Part shown: positions 5,137 to 12,260 of the stretch, piece by piece
How positions within the stretch are numbered: position 1 is the stretch's first letter
Layout of the letters: every line of letters starts with the position of its first letter
Source of the DNA: a virus
Virus record (IMG/VR): IMGVR_UViG_3300018424_000258
Coordinates: 1 to 23,829 of that record
Reading direction: 5' to 3' (one strand)
DNA: 23,829 bases
The notes under the pieces: model-generated
The model's database searches: none
Seen by the model: only the letters and a program-made list of their open reading frames with translations
What the model was told of the DNA's origin: nothing
Position numbers and translations under genes: made by a program

Positions 5137-8034
5137 ATGCCCGTAAAAAGTTTTAAATTTGTGTCTCCCGGTGTGTTTATCAACGAAATTGATAACTCAT
5201 TCCGTCCACGTAGACCAGATGCAATTGGTCCAGTAGTCGTTGGACGCTCTGTCAGAGGTCTTGCAATGCAGCCTGTCAAGTTGGAATCATTTTCTGACTT
5301 CCTGACCATGTATGGAGATACTGTACCCGGTAACGCTGGTGGTGATATTTATCGCGATGGCAACTACCAATCACCAATGTACGGCACTTACGCTGCAAAA
5401 GCCTTCTTGAACGCTTCTGTTGCCCCTGTAACTTACGTTCGTCTTCTTGGATCCGAAAACACCAACGCAACTGCTGCAGGTAAGGCAGGCTGGCAAACTA
5501 CCGAAAATCCCGCAGATCGTGGTGGAAGTATAGATAGTAACGGCGGCGCGTTCGGTCTTTGGGTATTCCCATCAAGCTCAAACGACAGTTGTGGCGAGGG
5601 TGGTGGCGCTACTGATAACCTCGGTACTGCTATTTTGAGTGCTGTCTGGTACATAGATGAAGATTGTTCAATACAGCTTTCTGGAACCCTTGCTAACGCA
5701 TCTTCTAAAGAAGAGGGTGTAGCCAAGGTAATCGAATCTGATGCCAGTGGCTTATTCACTGCTGTTGTTAAGGGCTCTAAGGCTTCCACAGAGGGTGACG
5801 AAACATTTACTTTCAACTTTGACGATACAGATCAAAAGTTCATTCGTAAGGTATTTAACACAAACCCACAGCTTGTTGATGGTGGCAACTTTTATGCACC
5901 ATCACTAGAGCGTAACTACTGGCTTGGTGAAACATTTGAACAGGAACTTCGTGAAGCACAAGACGGAGTTGGCTCAATAACTGGAAGTTCAGGTACCAGT
6001 ATTGCTTCACAAAAAATGTTTGGTGTTATTCTTCCAATTAGAAATGGCTCCAGCGGACCTAACTCAATGAAACTTGGAACCCAAGAGGCACAAACTGGCT
6101 GGGTTATTGGTCAGGATATCGGCAACGCTGCCTCTTGGGTTCCAGAAGAAGCATACAAGCTATTCAAGCTTAAGGGTCGTGGTCATGGCGAATGGTTGCA
6201 TAAGAATGTCAAGGTTTCAATTGAGAAAATTCGCTATTCTGGCACACAGACTAGTGACTTTGGTACATTCTCAATTGTTCTCCGTTCCTTAACTGATACT
6301 GACGCTAACCCGGTTGTTCTTGAAAGATTTGACAATGTAACTCTCGATCCACGTTCACCAAACTATGTTTCAAGAGTCGTTGGTGACCAATATTATCAAT
6401 GGAATGAGACCGAAAGAAGACTAAGACTATACGGGGAGTATCCAAACCAGTCCAAGTTTGTATATGTCAGCGATATAAACGAAGGCAATATTCAGAACGC
6501 CAACTCACTTGTTCCATTCGGATATTACGGTCCTCCTAACTTCTCTTCCGTCACTAACTGGAGTGGTTCACTTGGGGACCCAGCAGTTGCAGATAGCTAC
6601 ATTCGTGTATCTGCTCTACCTTTTAGTGCTGGTAATGATGGTATGCTTTCTGGTGCTGCCGGTAACTTCACTGGTTCACTAGTGTGGCCAAAAGTTAGAC
6701 TACGCCACTCTGCTTCAGATGGCGGTCTTTCCGACCAGACCGACGCTTTCTTTGGTATGCAGACTACTAGAACACTCGGTAGCAGCCGTGGCGATATGTC
6801 AGTCAAGGATTATCACAGAAGATGGATTGCTGAAGCTGGCAACTGGGGCTCAGTCGCAGGTGCTGTTGAACAAGATTACATCTTCACCATGGATGATATT
6901 GTAACAAGCAGTATTGGTGCTTACTACTCCTCTGGCTCAAGAGCATCAGAGACAAGTTACACTGCACAATCAGGTAAGACCTACAAGGATCTCATTGACC
7001 TTGGTTACGATAAGTTCACAATGCCTCTATGGGGTGGCTTTGACGGCTTCGATATCACCAAGCCAGATCCACTCTACAACACAGGTATTACTGATACTGC
7101 AACCGATACTACAAGTTATGCCTATAACACTTACAAGAGAGCAATTGATACAGTTGCCGACCCAGAGTTTGTAGACATGAACTTACTTACAGTTCCCGGT
7201 CTTACAAAAGAAGGTCTAACTACACACATGGTTAATGTTTGTGAAGCGCGAGCAGATGCTCTTGCGTTAATTGATCTTCCCGGTGTTTACTTGCCAGCGC
7301 ATGAAAAGTACGAATCAGATATTGCTGACCGTCAGACCAAGAGCCCATCACAGGCAGCAAACGATCTTCGTCAGCGCCAGATTGACTCATCCTACGGTGC
7401 TACATTCTACCCATGGGTACAGACTGTAGACGAAGGAACTGGTCAGGCACTATGGATTCCGCCTACTGTCGCTATGATGGGTGTACTTGCAAGCTCCGAG
7501 AGATCATCGCAAATCTGGTTTGCTCCAGCAGGCTTCAATAGAGGCGGTCTTTCCGACGGCGCAGCAGGTATCCCTGTCACTAGCGTCTCACGCAGACTAA
7601 CCTCTAAGGAGCGTGATGTTCTTTACGAGGCTCGCATTAACCCAATCGCAAGCTTCCCAAGCACTGGTATTGTAGTGTTCGGTCAGAAGACCCTACAAGA
7701 ACGTCCATCTGCTCTAGATCGCATCAACGTGCGTCGTCTAGTCATCTACCTCAAGAAGCAGATCTCCATCTTTTCTACTCAAATTCTCTTTGAGCAGAAC
7801 GTACAGGCAACTTGGAACCGCTTCAAAGGTCTTATTGAACCATTCCTTGCAAACGTCAAGACTCAATTCGGTATCACTGATTACCGTCTAATTCTAGACG
7901 AGAGCACCACAACACCTGACCTTATCGACCAGAATGTTGTTTATGCTAAGATTATGATTAAGCCAGCTAGAGCAATCGAGTACATCGCTATCGACTTCAT
8001 CGTTGCTTCAACCGGCGCATCATTTGACGACTGA
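5137..8034 (+). CDS. 18: Tail sheath protein (T4 gp18-like), enlarged
   Basis: This 965-residue protein is the contractile sheath subunit. The start SFKFVSPGVFINEID (about residues 5-19), followed by GPVVVGRSVRG and ESFSDFLTMYGD, is the classic sheath opening. The C-terminal third holds the conserved core: VPGLTKEGL, YYP-type FYPWVQ near 765, PPTVAMMGVLASSER, and the last domain with INVRRLVIYLKKQI and NRFKGLIEPFL (about 865-910). T4 gp18 is 659 residues. Most of the extra 300 lie in the middle (about residues 110-600), where Gly/Ser-rich beta-like sequence suggests added outer domains facing the solvent. The ribosome site GAGGAA is at 5125-5130. Expressed with the tube gene that follows. The family call is secure; the nature of the insert is inferred. 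Confidence 0.95.
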   Translation: MPVKSFKFVSPGVFINEIDNSFRPRRPDAIGPVVVGRSVRGLAMQPVKLESFSDFLTMYGDTVPGNAGGDIYRDGNYQSPMYGTYAAKAFLNASVAPVTYVRLLGSENTNATAAGKAGWQTTENPADRGGSIDSNGGAFGLWVFPSSSNDSCGEGGGATDNLGTAILSAVWYIDEDCSIQLSGTLANASSKEEGVAKVIESDASGLFTAVVKGSKASTEGDETFTFNFDDTDQKFIRKVFNTNPQLVDGGNFYAPSLERNYWLGETFEQELREAQDGVGSITGSSGTSIASQKMFGVILPIRNGSSGPNSMKLGTQEAQTGWVIGQDIGNAASWVPEEAYKLFKLKGRGHGEWLHKNVKVSIEKIRYSGTQTSDFGTFSIVLRSLTDTDANPVVLERFDNVTLDPRSPNYVSRVVGDQYYQWNETERRLRLYGEYPNQSKFVYVSDINEGNIQNANSLVPFGYYGPPNFSSVTNWSGSLGDPAVADSYIRVSALPFSAGNDGMLSGAAGNFTGSLVWPKVRLRHSASDGGLSDQTDAFFGMQTTRTLGSSRGDMSVKDYHRRWIAEAGNWGSVAGAVEQDYIFTMDDIVTSSIGAYYSSGSRASETSYTAQSGKTYKDLIDLGYDKFTMPLWGGFDGFDITKPDPLYNTGITDTATDTTSYAYNTYKRAIDTVADPEFVDMNLLTVPGLTKEGLTTHMVNVCEARADALALIDLPGVYLPAHEKYESDIADRQTKSPSQAANDLRQRQIDSSYGATFYPWVQTVDEGTGQALWIPPTVAMMGVLASSERSSQIWFAPAGFNRGGLSDGAAGIPVTSVSRRLTSKERDVLYEARINPIASFPSTGIVVFGQKTLQERPSALDRINVRRLVIYLKKQISIFSTQILFEQNVQATWNRFKGLIEPFLANVKTQFGITDYRLILDESTTTPDLIDQNVVYAKIMIKPARAIEYIAIDFIVASTGASFDD

Positions 8035-8094: not shown

Positions 8095-8682
8095 ATGCCA
8101 TTCTGGTCAGAAAACTTTGGTGATGGGACTAACAAAAAAGACCCAAAAAGAAATTTTAGATTTATCGTAGAATTCGGCGGTATTAATGCTACTCCCGGTG
8201 GTGCTGTAGCTTGGTACGCTAAAACTGCTCAAAAGCCTTCATTTGCTATTGCAAATGCAGAGCACAAGTACCTTAACCACACTTTTTATTATCCCGCAGG
8301 TGTAACTTGGAACCCGATTTCAATTACCATGGTTGATCCTGTCGACCCTGATATGTCAGCCACTTTCTCCGATATCATAACCGCAGGCGGCTATCGTCCC
8401 CCGACTGATACTACTTCTCTTGGTACCATGTCTAAGGCAAAGGCTGCCTCTGCTCTCGGTACTGTTACTGTCACTCAAATTGATTCAGACGGTAAACCAC
8501 TTGAGACTTGGACTCTTTGGAACCCATTCATTGAAGATATCAAGTATGGCGACACCCTTGATTACACAAATGCAGAACTTACAGAAGTTTCCGTCACTCT
8601 CCGTTATGACTGGGCAAGAATTGAAACTTCGACTGACTCTTCTGCTGTAAGTGCCGGTGGCCGTGAGTTCTTCAAGGTATAA
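8095..8682 (+). CDS. 19: Tail tube protein (T4 gp19-like)
   Basis: This 195-residue protein polymerises into the rigid inner tube. It begins MPFWSENFGDG followed by a KRNFRFIVEF strand, the usual opening of T4-type tube proteins, and has the central features AWYAKTAQKPSF (about 40-51), HTFYYPAGVTWNPISITMVDP (about 62-83), and a late WTLWNPFIEDIKYG (about 140-153). It ends with VSVTLRYDWARIE. T4 gp19 is 163 residues; the extra length sits mainly near residues 95-125 and at the C-terminus. It directly follows the sheath gene as in T4. Ribosome site AGGAGA at 8080-8085. Confidence 0.9.
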   Translation: MPFWSENFGDGTNKKDPKRNFRFIVEFGGINATPGGAVAWYAKTAQKPSFAIANAEHKYLNHTFYYPAGVTWNPISITMVDPVDPDMSATFSDIITAGGYRPPTDTTSLGTMSKAKAASALGTVTVTQIDSDGKPLETWTLWNPFIEDIKYGDTLDYTNAELTEVSVTLRYDWARIETSTDSSAVSAGGREFFKV

Positions 8683-8712: not shown

Positions 8713-9537
8713 TTGTCAAGAAACCAAGATCGTCTGGGCGGCGTTCAACAGCCCGACACGAGCCCCCCACCACAGATAGCTGGTGAGGGTTTCTCGTTTG
8801 TAATTCCCACTGAATTTGTGGATCTTCCATCACTAGGAAGATATTATCCAGAGAACCACCCTCTTCATAATAAAGAAAGTATAGAAATTAAGCAGATGAC
8901 TGCAAAAGAAGAGGATATTCTCACATCAAGAACGCTATTAAAGAAAGGTCTTGCTTTGGAGAGGTTGTTACAAAGCTTGATTGTAGACAAATCAATCGAC
9001 CCGACAACTTTGCTTGTTGGAGATCGTAATGCAGTAATAATTGCTGCTAGGGTTTCTGGATACGGTAGTGATTATGCTGTTTCTGTTGACTGTCCTGCTT
9101 GTGGTACGAATCAAGATTATGGATTTAATCTAAAAGAGTTACAAATTACTCATGGAGATGTAGATCATACAATGGATGTTACAGATAACTTAGATGGAAC
9201 AATTACTTGTATTCTGCCAAAGACTGAAATTACTGTAGTTGCCAGACTATTAACGGGCAAAGAAGAGAAAACAATTACTAACATCATAGGCGGAAACAAT
9301 TTGATATCAAAACAGCTTGAATCATTAATTGTTAGTGTAAACGGAGACTCTTCTAGAAAAGCAATCCAATATGTTGCCAATAATATACCTTCAATTGATT
9401 CACGTCACTTGCGTATGGTTGTGAAAGAAGCTACTCCCAATGTTGATTTAACTCAAGAATTTTCTTGTACCAATTGTGGTCATACGCAAGAAATGGAGGT
9501 GCCGCTTACGGCAAACTTTTTTTGGCCTGACCGATGA
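8713..9537 (+). CDS. 26: T4 gp26-like baseplate/tail assembly protein with Cys4 site, TTG start
   Basis: The product is 274 residues and resembles the T4 baseplate family containing gp26 (Pfam T4_baseplate). After a Pro/Gln-rich leader come FVDLPSLGRYYP (about 35-46), EIKQMTAKEEDIL (58-70) and a KKGLALERLL helix. Two CxxC pairs, C127/C130 and C252/C255, could bind one zinc. T4 gp26 is needed for hub assembly but is not found in the finished baseplate, so a chaperone-like role is plausible. The start is TTG 8713 behind GAGGTG (8703-8708). Its 3' end contains seven T in a row (9517-9523), and the next reading frame overlaps it and has no own start. This arrangement, right before the tape measure, resembles the G/GT tail chaperone pair of other phages. 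Confidence 0.7.
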   Translation: MSRNQDRLGGVQQPDTSPPPQIAGEGFSFVIPTEFVDLPSLGRYYPENHPLHNKESIEIKQMTAKEEDILTSRTLLKKGLALERLLQSLIVDKSIDPTTLLVGDRNAVIIAARVSGYGSDYAVSVDCPACGTNQDYGFNLKELQITHGDVDHTMDVTDNLDGTITCILPKTEITVVARLLTGKEEKTITNIIGGNNLISKQLESLIVSVNGDSSRKAIQYVANNIPSIDSRHLRMVVKEATPNVDLTQEFSCTNCGHTQEMEVPLTANFFWPDR

Positions 9538-9763
9538 TTATAATGAGGGAGTCTATGAACAAATTTTCTTCCTCAAATATACAGGCGGCTGGAGTTTTTC
9601 TGAAATATATAACCTCCCTGTAGGGCTCAGAAACTGGTTTGTTAAACGCACAGTCAAACAATTAGAAGATGAGGCACAAGCAATCAAAGAAGCATCAAAT
9701 GGCGGCGGTAATTCGCAGACGCTAACAGTTCACAATCAGCCAAAGATGCCGAAAACCTTCTAA
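9476..9763 (+). CDS. Overlapping downstream frame, probably expressed as a frameshift fusion to the gp26-like protein
   Basis: The frame is open from 9452 to TAA 9761-9763. The protein-like part starts near 9524 (GLTDDYNEGVYEQIFFLKY, then GGWSFSEIYNLPVGLRNWFVKR and a charged helix). No ATG or TTG occurs in this frame. The only common start is GTG 9476 within the gp26-like gene, which lacks a ribosome site and would add an unlikely basic stretch. A +1 (or -2) slip on the T7 run at 9517-9523 would join gp26-like residues 1-270 to 79 new residues, giving about 349. The GG-S---MP/LP--R-WFV pattern is reminiscent of tail assembly proteins of T4-like phages. The coordinates given are those of the open frame from GTG. 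Expression by frameshift is an inference. Confidence 0.55.
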   Translation: MVIRKKWRCRLRQTFFGLTDDYNEGVYEQIFFLKYTGGWSFSEIYNLPVGLRNWFVKRTVKQLEDEAQAIKEASNGGGNSQTLTVHNQPKMPKTF

Positions 9764-9766
9764 CTT

Positions 9767-9795
9767 AGGCACCCACCGGGTGCCTTTGCTTTTTT
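9767..9795 (+). terminator. Rho-independent terminator before the tape measure gene
   Basis: AGGCACCC (9767-9774) pairs with GGGTGCCT (9778-9785) around a 3-nt loop, followed by TTGCTTTTTT. It lies 3 nt after the chaperone-frame stop, so it separates the tail/chaperone transcript from the tape measure. Confidence 0.85.
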
Positions 9796-9830: not shown

Positions 9831-12260
9831 ATGTCAAGAAGAACAGGTCGCACAGCCGATCAATTTAGTAAATTACGTCAAGAAATTGAGGCGTTAAACG
9901 CTGCAATACAGCAACTAATTGAAAGTCAACGCCAAGCAAATGCTGAGGCGCGTGCAGAATATGAGAGAAAAGAAAGAGTAACCGCTGCTTCTGATGCTAG
10001 ACGTACTGCATCAGAAGACGCACGCGACGAAAAAGAAAGGCAACGCCTTGCAAGAAATGAGAAATTATTGAAGCAACAAGAAAAAAGGGTTGAAAAAGCC
10101 CAAGAAGAGTTTGACCAAGCTTCAAGCATACAAAAAAAGTTGGAAAAATTATCACAATTACAAGAAGAGCAACTTGATTTAGAGAAGAAAAAACTCGATG
10201 AAATGGACGCAACTGATGAAAAATATGCCGACCAACTTCAGAAAATACAAGATATACAAAATGGTATTAAAAATACCAATGAGAGCACAAAACAATTTAA
10301 TAAAAAACTTGATGAAACAAGAGAAAAAGTAAATTCTATAAGTGAAACCGTTAAAAGTTTTACCTCTAGTCTCATGACCATTGCTAAAGGCGATTTTGTG
10401 AATGGATTTAAACAATTCGGTGGTGCGATGGGTTCTGTAGTCAAAAAATTTGCTAGTAAAAAACTCAAAGCTGGTACTGAAAGCTTATTAAATCGGATAT
10501 CGGCAATGGGCACAAAAATGCCAGAGGCAGCCCAAGGTGCCTCACAGGCAGGGGCAGCAATAAGCTCGCTTGGTTCATCTTCTATTGCAGCGACTGGTGG
10601 TGCGATAGGTCTCGGTGTTGCTCTTGGAGTTGTAATCGCTGCTCTTCTTGCATTGGCAGTAGCAATTGGTGCTGCCATGATACTAGCAAAATTTACTTTA
10701 GAAATTGAAAACTCTTCACGCGAACTTGCAAAAATTACTGGACTATCAAAAGATTTTGCTCATTCTATGCACGAAAATGCAATGGAATTACGAACAGCGG
10801 GTGTGTCAGCGCAAGACCTAAATGGCGCACTAATTTCACTAAATGCTACATTTACTGATTTTAGTATGCTCTCAACTTCAACTGCAAAGAAAGTTGCCGA
10901 TACAACGGCAGTACTAACAAAATTAGGAATGTCTACCGATGATGCTTCTAGAGGATTCCAAACCCTAACCAAAGGTATGGCACAAACTCCTGATGAGGCT
11001 GCCAACACAATGATAGCAATGGATGCTCTTGCGAGAGATTTGAATGTCAGTACATCGAAAATTGGTGCTGATTTTGCAGGGGCTGCAAGCCATCTACAAA
11101 AGCTATCAGGACCAGAAGCAATACGAGCATTTAAACAATTGTCAGTTGTTTCAAAGGCAACAGGTATTGAGGTATCCAGACTGCTTGCAATAACTGAAAA
11201 ATTTGACACGTTTGAAGGCGCAGCCACGCAGGCTGGCAAACTTAATGCTGCTCTTGGTGGCAACTTTGTAAATGCTATGGAGCTTATGACAGCGACAAAC
11301 CCAGTTGAGCGTTTTGAAATGATCAGAGATTCAATACTTGATTCGGGCTTGGCATTTGATGAAATGTCATACTTTCAAAAGAAATTCTTTGCCGATGCAG
11401 CAGGTATGGCAGATGTAGGTGAACTTGCTCTTGCTATGAGTGGAGATTTTGGTGCAGTTAACGCAGAAATTGGTAAGACACAAGCAGACTACGAAGCCGC
11501 AGCAGAAAGAGCAAAGAGTTTTCAGTCAGTTCAAGAACAATTAAAGAATTCTTTTTATCAATTAATACCTGTTATAACTCCGCTTATTGAAAAAATCGAT
11601 GAATTTACTGATAAATTTACACAATTTGTTAAAGAAAACCAAAATGAAGTTCAAGATGTTTTTCGCGAACTTGGCGATGTTATGATCACTTTGGCTGATA
11701 CATTTATTACTCTTGCGCCACTTATATCAGTTTTGCTAAAATCATTTGCTAAAATAGTTCAGATGGTCATGAAAGTCAACAATGAGATTGGTATTTTAGC
11801 AGTTCTAAACAGCGCACTTAAAGACTCAATGACTGTAAAAAAATCACCATCACTACTTGATGCTGTTGTTATGTTATCTGAAGGTCTGGCAGGCATAGGA
11901 GAAGGGGTGTCCAAAATATTGTCACCAGTCGGGGCACTGACCACTGGAATGAAAAAATTAAAAGATTCAATATTTGGTGGCGAAGACGGGCTGACAGCCA
12001 ATGTTCAAATGACTGCTGCTGCTGTAGCGGGCGTTGGTGATGCCTCCGCACGAAGTGCTGCTGCCGTGAGGGCAACAGCACCTACAATTGCCAACAACAC
12101 TGCAATTAGAAATGCAACAAACAATACAACGATTAACAACACAAACGGTGGTTCCAATACAGGAATCAGTATTAAGTTTGATAACAAGAAGTTTGCCGAT
12201 CTCTTTGATGTTCAAGTTGAGAAGTCAATTGGCAGAGCAGCAAGAAAGGCGGTAATATAA
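9831..12260 (+). CDS. Tail tape measure protein (T4 gp29 analogue)
   Basis: The product of 809 residues has the build of a tape measure protein, which sets tail length and may be ejected with DNA. Residues 1-175 are highly charged and predicted coiled coil (Glu/Lys/Gln/Arg). Residues 257-286 form a Gly/Ala/Val/Leu hydrophobic segment long enough to cross a membrane. The middle is Ala-rich helical sequence with repeated MA/DA patterns, and further hydrophobic stretches occur near 615-650. The last 60 residues are Asn/Thr-rich and then basic. It follows the chaperone-like pair and precedes the tube initiator, the usual place. T4 gp29 has 590 residues, so the tail should be longer than that of T4 if length scales. 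Ribosome site GGGAGAGG at 9814-9821. Confidence 0.8.
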   Translation: MSRRTGRTADQFSKLRQEIEALNAAIQQLIESQRQANAEARAEYERKERVTAASDARRTASEDARDEKERQRLARNEKLLKQQEKRVEKAQEEFDQASSIQKKLEKLSQLQEEQLDLEKKKLDEMDATDEKYADQLQKIQDIQNGIKNTNESTKQFNKKLDETREKVNSISETVKSFTSSLMTIAKGDFVNGFKQFGGAMGSVVKKFASKKLKAGTESLLNRISAMGTKMPEAAQGASQAGAAISSLGSSSIAATGGAIGLGVALGVVIAALLALAVAIGAAMILAKFTLEIENSSRELAKITGLSKDFAHSMHENAMELRTAGVSAQDLNGALISLNATFTDFSMLSTSTAKKVADTTAVLTKLGMSTDDASRGFQTLTKGMAQTPDEAANTMIAMDALARDLNVSTSKIGADFAGAASHLQKLSGPEAIRAFKQLSVVSKATGIEVSRLLAITEKFDTFEGAATQAGKLNAALGGNFVNAMELMTATNPVERFEMIRDSILDSGLAFDEMSYFQKKFFADAAGMADVGELALAMSGDFGAVNAEIGKTQADYEAAAERAKSFQSVQEQLKNSFYQLIPVITPLIEKIDEFTDKFTQFVKENQNEVQDVFRELGDVMITLADTFITLAPLISVLLKSFAKIVQMVMKVNNEIGILAVLNSALKDSMTVKKSPSLLDAVVMLSEGLAGIGEGVSKILSPVGALTTGMKKLKDSIFGGEDGLTANVQMTAAAVAGVGDASARSAAAVRATAPTIANNTAIRNATNNTTINNTNGGSNTGISIKFDNKKFADLFDVQVEKSIGRAARKAVI

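Follow-up and report, generated by a model that had tools for sequence, protein, structure and literature searches.

A T4 gp26-like gene of an IMG/VR virus as a probable two-form tail assembly chaperone with a proposed hairpin-aided +1 frameshift

How an open frame without a start of its own could come to be translated is the question raised by the tail module of the IMG/VR virus record IMGVR_UViG_3300018424_000258, which was analyzed over 23,829 bases (positions 1 to 23,829 of the record, hereafter the window). Its genes follow the order tail sheath, tail tube, T4 gp26-like gene, second open frame, and tape measure; the place of the gp26-like gene between tail tube and tape measure is shared by the named phage relatives. 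The gp26-like open reading frame starts with TTG and encodes 274 amino acids up to a TGA stop at 9535-9537; the second frame is +1 relative to it, is open from 9452 to 9763, and can be entered by a shift of either +1 or -2. An earlier note, made from the letters of this DNA alone, had described the pair as overlapping across a run of seven T (T7; 9517-9523, read in frame 0 as AAC TTT TTT TGG) shortly before the stop, as lying directly before the tape measure gene, and as lacking an ATG or TTG and a ribosome site for the second frame, all of which could be confirmed. In the +1 frame of the window ATG and TTG are both absent, and its sole GTG, at 9476 and thus 45 nt ahead of the shift point, has no Shine-Dalgarno sequence before it at ordinary spacing. 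The note's central proposal, a programmed frameshift making a chaperone fusion of the G/GT type, is strongly supported by the comparison of relatives: very probably, a tail assembly chaperone (TAC) is made from the gp26-like gene in two forms, with a fraction of ribosomes shifting +1 with the aid of a small RNA hairpin, which is found immediately 5' of UUUUUUUGG at the end of this T4-type gene.

Relatives were gathered as five clade-wise sets (G1, 80; G2, 75; G3, 76; G4, 77; and G5, 78 loci, with some contigs shared between the sets), to which the window itself, six named phages, and 18 loci on genome contigs were added. One locus with a gp26 frame broken upstream (L252) was left out, as were six truncated contigs, which are uninformative, and the removal of near-duplicates left 309 non-redundant +1 loci. 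Among the anchored non-redundant relatives, that is, loci with an intact gp26 end, the +1 relation is present in 309/309. It is seen in all 80 IMG/VR relatives of the window, in 18 loci on genome contigs (one distant locus is -1), and in six of the seven best-matching phages, named or deposited, and four more seeds from other clades likewise gave +1 exclusively in loci with an intact gp26 end. The slip sequences among the 309 are TTTTTTTGG (271 loci), TTCTTTTGG (21), TTTCTTTGG (6), and TTTCTTTAC (3). The ratio of nonsynonymous to synonymous substitution rates (dN/dS) of the +1 domain has a median of 0.27 over 142 unsaturated pairs; judged by its sequences, the domain is under purifying selection. 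Of the 105 loci in the initial survey, 17 have no ATG, GTG, or TTG in the +1 frame, whether ahead of the shift or in the next 15 codons. Because the frame is kept in every anchored relative, with this low dN/dS and with frames devoid of a start, the comparison confirms that the overlap goes beyond chance. A sequencing error in the T-run, which the note had named as a possible undoing of its idea, is excluded by the occurrence of T7GG in 271/309 non-redundant records from many metagenomes and genomes. The note had also suggested a survey of relatives for the same overlap and the same slippery run; the overlap recurs throughout, and the run does not hold as a constant element, being shorter than T6 in 34 loci.

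Two distant gp26 homologues, one on a 595-kb uncultured phage (L004, the seventh of the phage relatives above) and one on a contig of a Deltaproteobacteria metagenome-assembled genome (L114), have a -1 and not a +1 relation, so that either the direction has switched more than once or both are nearer to the -1 lineage. On contig NHDW01000006.1 (305,838 bases, binned as Methylococcaceae), the same gp26 region is present near each end (L103 and L104), which points to a large phage genome with redundant ends or else to overlapping assembly.

The stem-loop of the window has a folding energy of -7.0 kcal/mol (p 0.003 against synonymous redraws). Synonymous codons ahead of the site are strongly skewed, with GAG at -7, CCG at -5, GCG at -2, and GAC at -1; the Glu codon at -7 is GAG 68 times, against a GAG background of 34%. 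Of the 309 loci, 48 have no GGAGG, and most have it at -22, -28, or -31. Folding the last 24 nt against synonymous redraws gave a mean z of -2.38, with 67% at p<0.05 (81 near loci); other windows of the gp26-like gene gave z near 0, the nearest two -0.6. Across G1 to G5 the mean z of the last 24 nt was -2.24, -1.27, -1.57, -1.76, and -1.39, compared with +0.28 in the -1 clade, and with GC-matched redraws the effect was smaller but negative (-0.81 to -1.40; -1 clade, +0.40). One pair in G1 occurs with CG, UG, and UA types, and in G2 the third base of a Val codon pairs with the third base of a Gly codon in 30/30 distinct rows, as UA, UG, CG, GC, or AU, with a covariation score reached by no shuffle. 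Chimeric hairpin arms were less stable in G1, G2, G4, and G5 (0/1000), which was not the case in the -1 clade, and the slip window is the extreme of this chimera test in the same four clades. By these comparisons the hairpin arms co-evolve in four of the five clades, in a helix register that varies between and within clades. A trade-off between GGAGG and hairpin strength was not significant (p 0.15), and a fixed GGAGG-to-slip spacing with the hairpin removed was not observed, the spacing varying roughly from 3 to 9 nt. Downstream of the shift site, no consistent structure that might serve as a 3' stimulator was found.

At the shift site itself, the P-site codon among the 309 loci is TTT in 299, CTT in nine, CTA in one, and TTC in none, against a background of 27% TTC among the Phe codons of these genes; its third base is constrained by neither protein after a +1 shift. 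The A-site codon is UGG in 298/309. Re-pairing by +1 at UUU_U, UUU_C, or CUU_U suits nearly all variants; the locus with CTA (L001) would have to slip at the preceding codon, at UUU_C, and L006 and L111 have TTT-CGN. Longer T-runs seem to be avoided, because the base preceding T7 is T in just 5/309 loci (3/24 where the first codon is TTC). Since the 34 non-redundant loci without a T6 run still keep the frame (hairpin significant in 53%, mean z -1.84), the T-run itself is, by this comparison, not the conserved element.

The comparison establishes the frame, the fusion domain, the +1 geometry, and the conservation of the hairpin. From these results we infer a translational rather than a transcriptional slip, a stimulating role of the hairpin, the relative share of the products, and the binding of a client along the following lines. 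Most ribosomes would stay in frame 0 and terminate at 9535-9537, giving TAC-N. Some would shift +1 while the P-site holds the second Phe codon, UUU (9520-9522), and the A-site holds UGG; the peptidyl-tRNA-Phe would re-pair onto the overlapping UUU one base on, and decoding would continue at GGC to give TAC-NC, of 349 aa, with the junction LTANFF-GLTDDY. The hairpin, refolding in the wake of the ribosome and lodged by the E-site codon, downstream of GGAGG, probably aids the shift, and a non-U base ahead of the first Phe codon would make the site a poor -1 heptamer. On the model of lambda G/GT, the tape measure protein would be coated by TAC-N, and tail tube protein would be recruited by the C domain. 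A putative function as a tail assembly chaperone follows from gene order, homology, and the lambda model, and this reading is strongly supported by comparison.

Several observations weigh against this scheme. UGG is neither a stop nor a known hungry codon and so offers no clear cause for a pause. The hairpin is not present everywhere: a stem of at least four pairs occurs in 65/81 near loci, G3 has a weak one (chimera p about 0.03-0.06), and several named phages likewise have a weak hairpin. The chimera test at other windows scattered at z of about -2 to -4, reaching -4 in two windows 3' of the shift. Lastly, the hairpin followed by T7 resembles both an intrinsic terminator, as which a terminator scan flags the site, and the arrangement in Roseiflexus.

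It is because of this double resemblance that slippage of the polymerase is the main rival. A nascent RNA hairpin by the U-run would lead the polymerase to drop one U, which gives the correct frame, and the altered mRNA would be translated normally, as in the stem-loop-linked transcriptional slippage of Roseiflexus IS630 (PMC5009743). However, the 34 loci with TTCTTTTGG, TTTCTTTGG, or TTCTTTC... have T-runs of at most four and keep the frame, about half of them with a significant hairpin, and an rC:dA mismatch blocks such realignment (PMC5009743). The homopolymer run that abuts the hairpin in all members, by which the Roseiflexus IS630 case is recognized, is not a feature of all loci here, and the scarcity of T before T7 also speaks against the polymerase. 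We consider this route unlikely.

A ribosomal slip of -2 on the T-run, such as has been reported for Mu, leads to the same frame and is feasible on TTTTTTTGG, but re-pairing is impossible on TTC TTT TGG, TTT CTT TGG, TTT CTA, TTC TTT CGT, and similar sequences, on all of which +1 works. Because these variants disallow it we reject the -2 shift, to which we give a very small probability; of the note's "+1 or -2 slip" only the first part stands, the variants pointing to +1 at YUU_U and excluding -2. About as improbable is a separate downstream gene with its own ribosome site, or reached by re-initiation, with GGAGG and the hairpin bringing it near the start. GGAGG is indeed upstream in most loci, and in some of them the +1 frame contains an ATG, at EYMEN. 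The window has no ATG, GTG, or TTG at a usable distance, 17 other loci have none around the shift, conservation of the +1 frame starts at the shift point, and annotation that sought a start gave fragments of 36-39 aa (immuto35A_232, SP15_046). Least probable of all is that hairpin and T7, for all that the terminator scan flags them, form a mere transcription attenuator with an incidental overlap, since the stem has just 4-7 pairs, 34 loci have an interrupted run, and the frame relation holds throughout and is subject to selection.

The hairpin-aided +1 shift that we favor can be set beside several known systems. T4 gp26 and gp51 are reported to be the T4 tail assembly chaperones (Vladimirov, Gautam, and Davidson 2022, Virology 566:9-15); the earlier note was thus right in regarding the gp26 family as the chaperone counterpart, which had already been published. 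The PF12322 domain is common to T4 and the window, and gp51 combines it with a C-terminal segment matching the TAC-C of cyanophages, but T4 has two separate genes, 26 and 51, on opposite strands and without a shift, where the window has one gene and a probable +1 shift. The cyanophage gp26 homologues (S-PM2, P-SSM2, and 80 contigs) have homologous TAC-N and TAC-C and shift close to the gene end, at two successive Phe codons. In contrast to the +1 loci, they use a canonical -1 heptamer U_UUU_UUC, with T before the first Phe codon in 41/41 (5/309 in the +1 set), have GGAG near -16, a spacing like that of other -1 sites, and have no hairpin. One T4-type chaperone family would contain three solutions, a +1 shift, a -1 shift, and two genes, so that the way in which shift direction evolves could be tested in a single gene.

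Lambda G/GT and SPP1 17.5/17.5* likewise have a two-product chaperone gene between the tail tube and tape measure genes but shift by -1, in SPP1 putatively at UUUUUUC (PMC6316719); G-T frameshifting has been reviewed as widespread in long-tailed phages except T4 (PMC5009743). For the archaeal myoviruses of the HF1 group and HSTV-2, a +1 shift in the tail chaperone pair has been proposed at TTT-CGC (PMC7230728), which resembles the TTT-CGN of L006 and L111; the likeness is one of shift site, and the passage on that shift describes no hairpin. The +1 shift of RF2 (prfB) occurs at CUU_U, and in a minority of species at UUU_U (PMC5009743). It shares with the window the succession of a duplex, an E codon, CUU or UUU, and then U, but the duplex is a Shine-Dalgarno pairing in RF2 and an mRNA hairpin, with UGG following the slip codon, in the window. 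In E. coli 70S translation, Huang et al. found that a hairpin by the E-site, mimicking the Shine-Dalgarno duplex of RF2, stimulates +1 on CUUUGA and attenuates -1 (PMC6321510); the layout of the window, duplex, E codon UUU, P codon UUU, and then U, is like that of their constructs.

We hold it moderately probable that these loci represent a natural +1 signal of bacterial viruses, in which GGAGG leads into a co-evolving hairpin placed at the E-site codon, YUU_UGG follows, mRNA folding replaces the Shine-Dalgarno pairing of RF2, and the -1 sister phages have no hairpin and a U before the Phe pair. Gp26 and gp51 as T4 chaperones and a proposed +1 shift in the chaperones of archaeal viruses were known already, and several T4-like groups reportedly shift frame. 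Neither a +1 site of the form YUU_UGG behind a co-evolving 5' hairpin nor a family split between +1 and -1 was found described in a comparison that does not take in the text of Vladimirov et al. 2022, and we make no firm claim to priority. With its conserved upstream hairpin, the family would provide a natural example of an effect otherwise found in designed constructs only (PMC6321510).

TAC-N matches PF12322 with E 4.1e-17 and 63 bits, above the curated cut-off of 24.5, and phrog_150 with E 7.5e-19; T4 gp26 and T4 gp51 both match PF12322. The connection of TAC-C to gp51 runs through the cyanophage TAC-C: the +1 domain aligns with the cyanophage -1 domain (hhalign 93.7%, E 1.8e-7), the latter aligns with the gp51 C-terminus (89%, E 2e-6), and the direct comparison of TAC-C and the gp51 C-terminus is not significant (0.5%). 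DUF6760 (PF20546) is a weak but recurrent match of TAC-C: with E-values of 0.1 or lower (best 3.2e-5), it is matched by 57/103 members, a count taken before any per-member cut-off; the TAC-C of the window scores 16.8, under the cut-off of 27. We take DUF6760 to be a family of contractile injection systems, and if it is, those systems may carry the same chaperone domain. The AlphaFold2 model of TAC-N has a predicted local distance difference test score (pLDDT) of 89.9; its highest-probability PDB match in Foldseek is 2ob9, a tail assembly chaperone of HK97 (prob 0.77, with a weak E of 0.46), and in a viral structure library it matches gp26-type baseplate hub proteins. The model of TAC-C, with a pLDDT of 85, consists of three helices. 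A sequence search of the PDB with TAC-N and a fold search with TAC-C gave nothing significant.

The gp26-like protein has two CxxC pairs (CPAC and CTNC), kept in most relatives and likely forming a zinc ribbon. Small hypothetical genes lie in the TAC-C frame of Flavobacterium phage immuto (L003, 3336-3446), Bacillus phage SP-15 (L005, 3309-3428), and Microcystis phage Mel-JY01 (L002, 3237-3473). By sequence they seem to be pieces of the +1 domain or versions of it with a wrong start, which would account for their mis-annotation.

Table 1. Positions of the tail genes and of the proposed shift signal in the window
Feature	Positions	Strand	Remarks
Tail sheath gene	5137-8034		965 aa
Tail tube gene, upstream neighbor	8095-8682	+	phrog_4542, E 3.1e-22
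TAC-N, T4 gp26-like gene, frame 0, putative short chaperone product	8713-9537	+	PF12322, phrog_150
GGAGG, Shine-Dalgarno-like, 5' of the hairpin	9495-9499	+	Codon skew, recurrence in relatives
Stem-loop TGCCG-CTTA-CGGCA	9500-9513	+	Directly after GGAGG, 3 nt ahead of TTT TTT TGG
Proposed shift site TTT TTT TGG (E-site UUU, P-site UUU, A-site UGG)	9517-9525	+	Codon counts in 309 loci
TAC-C, +1-frame domain, 79 aa	9524-9763	+	Proposed C-terminus of the 349-aa TAC-NC, with no other expression
Tape measure gene, downstream neighbor, presumed client	9831-12260	+	phrog_167, E 1.4e-8

The remaining features of the window are listed with the above in table 1. The match of the sheath gene is confined to its C-terminal third, and a large N-terminal part has no assignment. 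Rfam and tRNA scans of the window gave no matches, nor did a plasmid collection. A strong terminator-like hairpin, AGGCACCCACCGGGTGCCT followed by TTGCTTTTTT, lies at 9767-9785, after TAC-C and ahead of the tape measure gene, and might reduce transcription of the latter relative to the chaperone.
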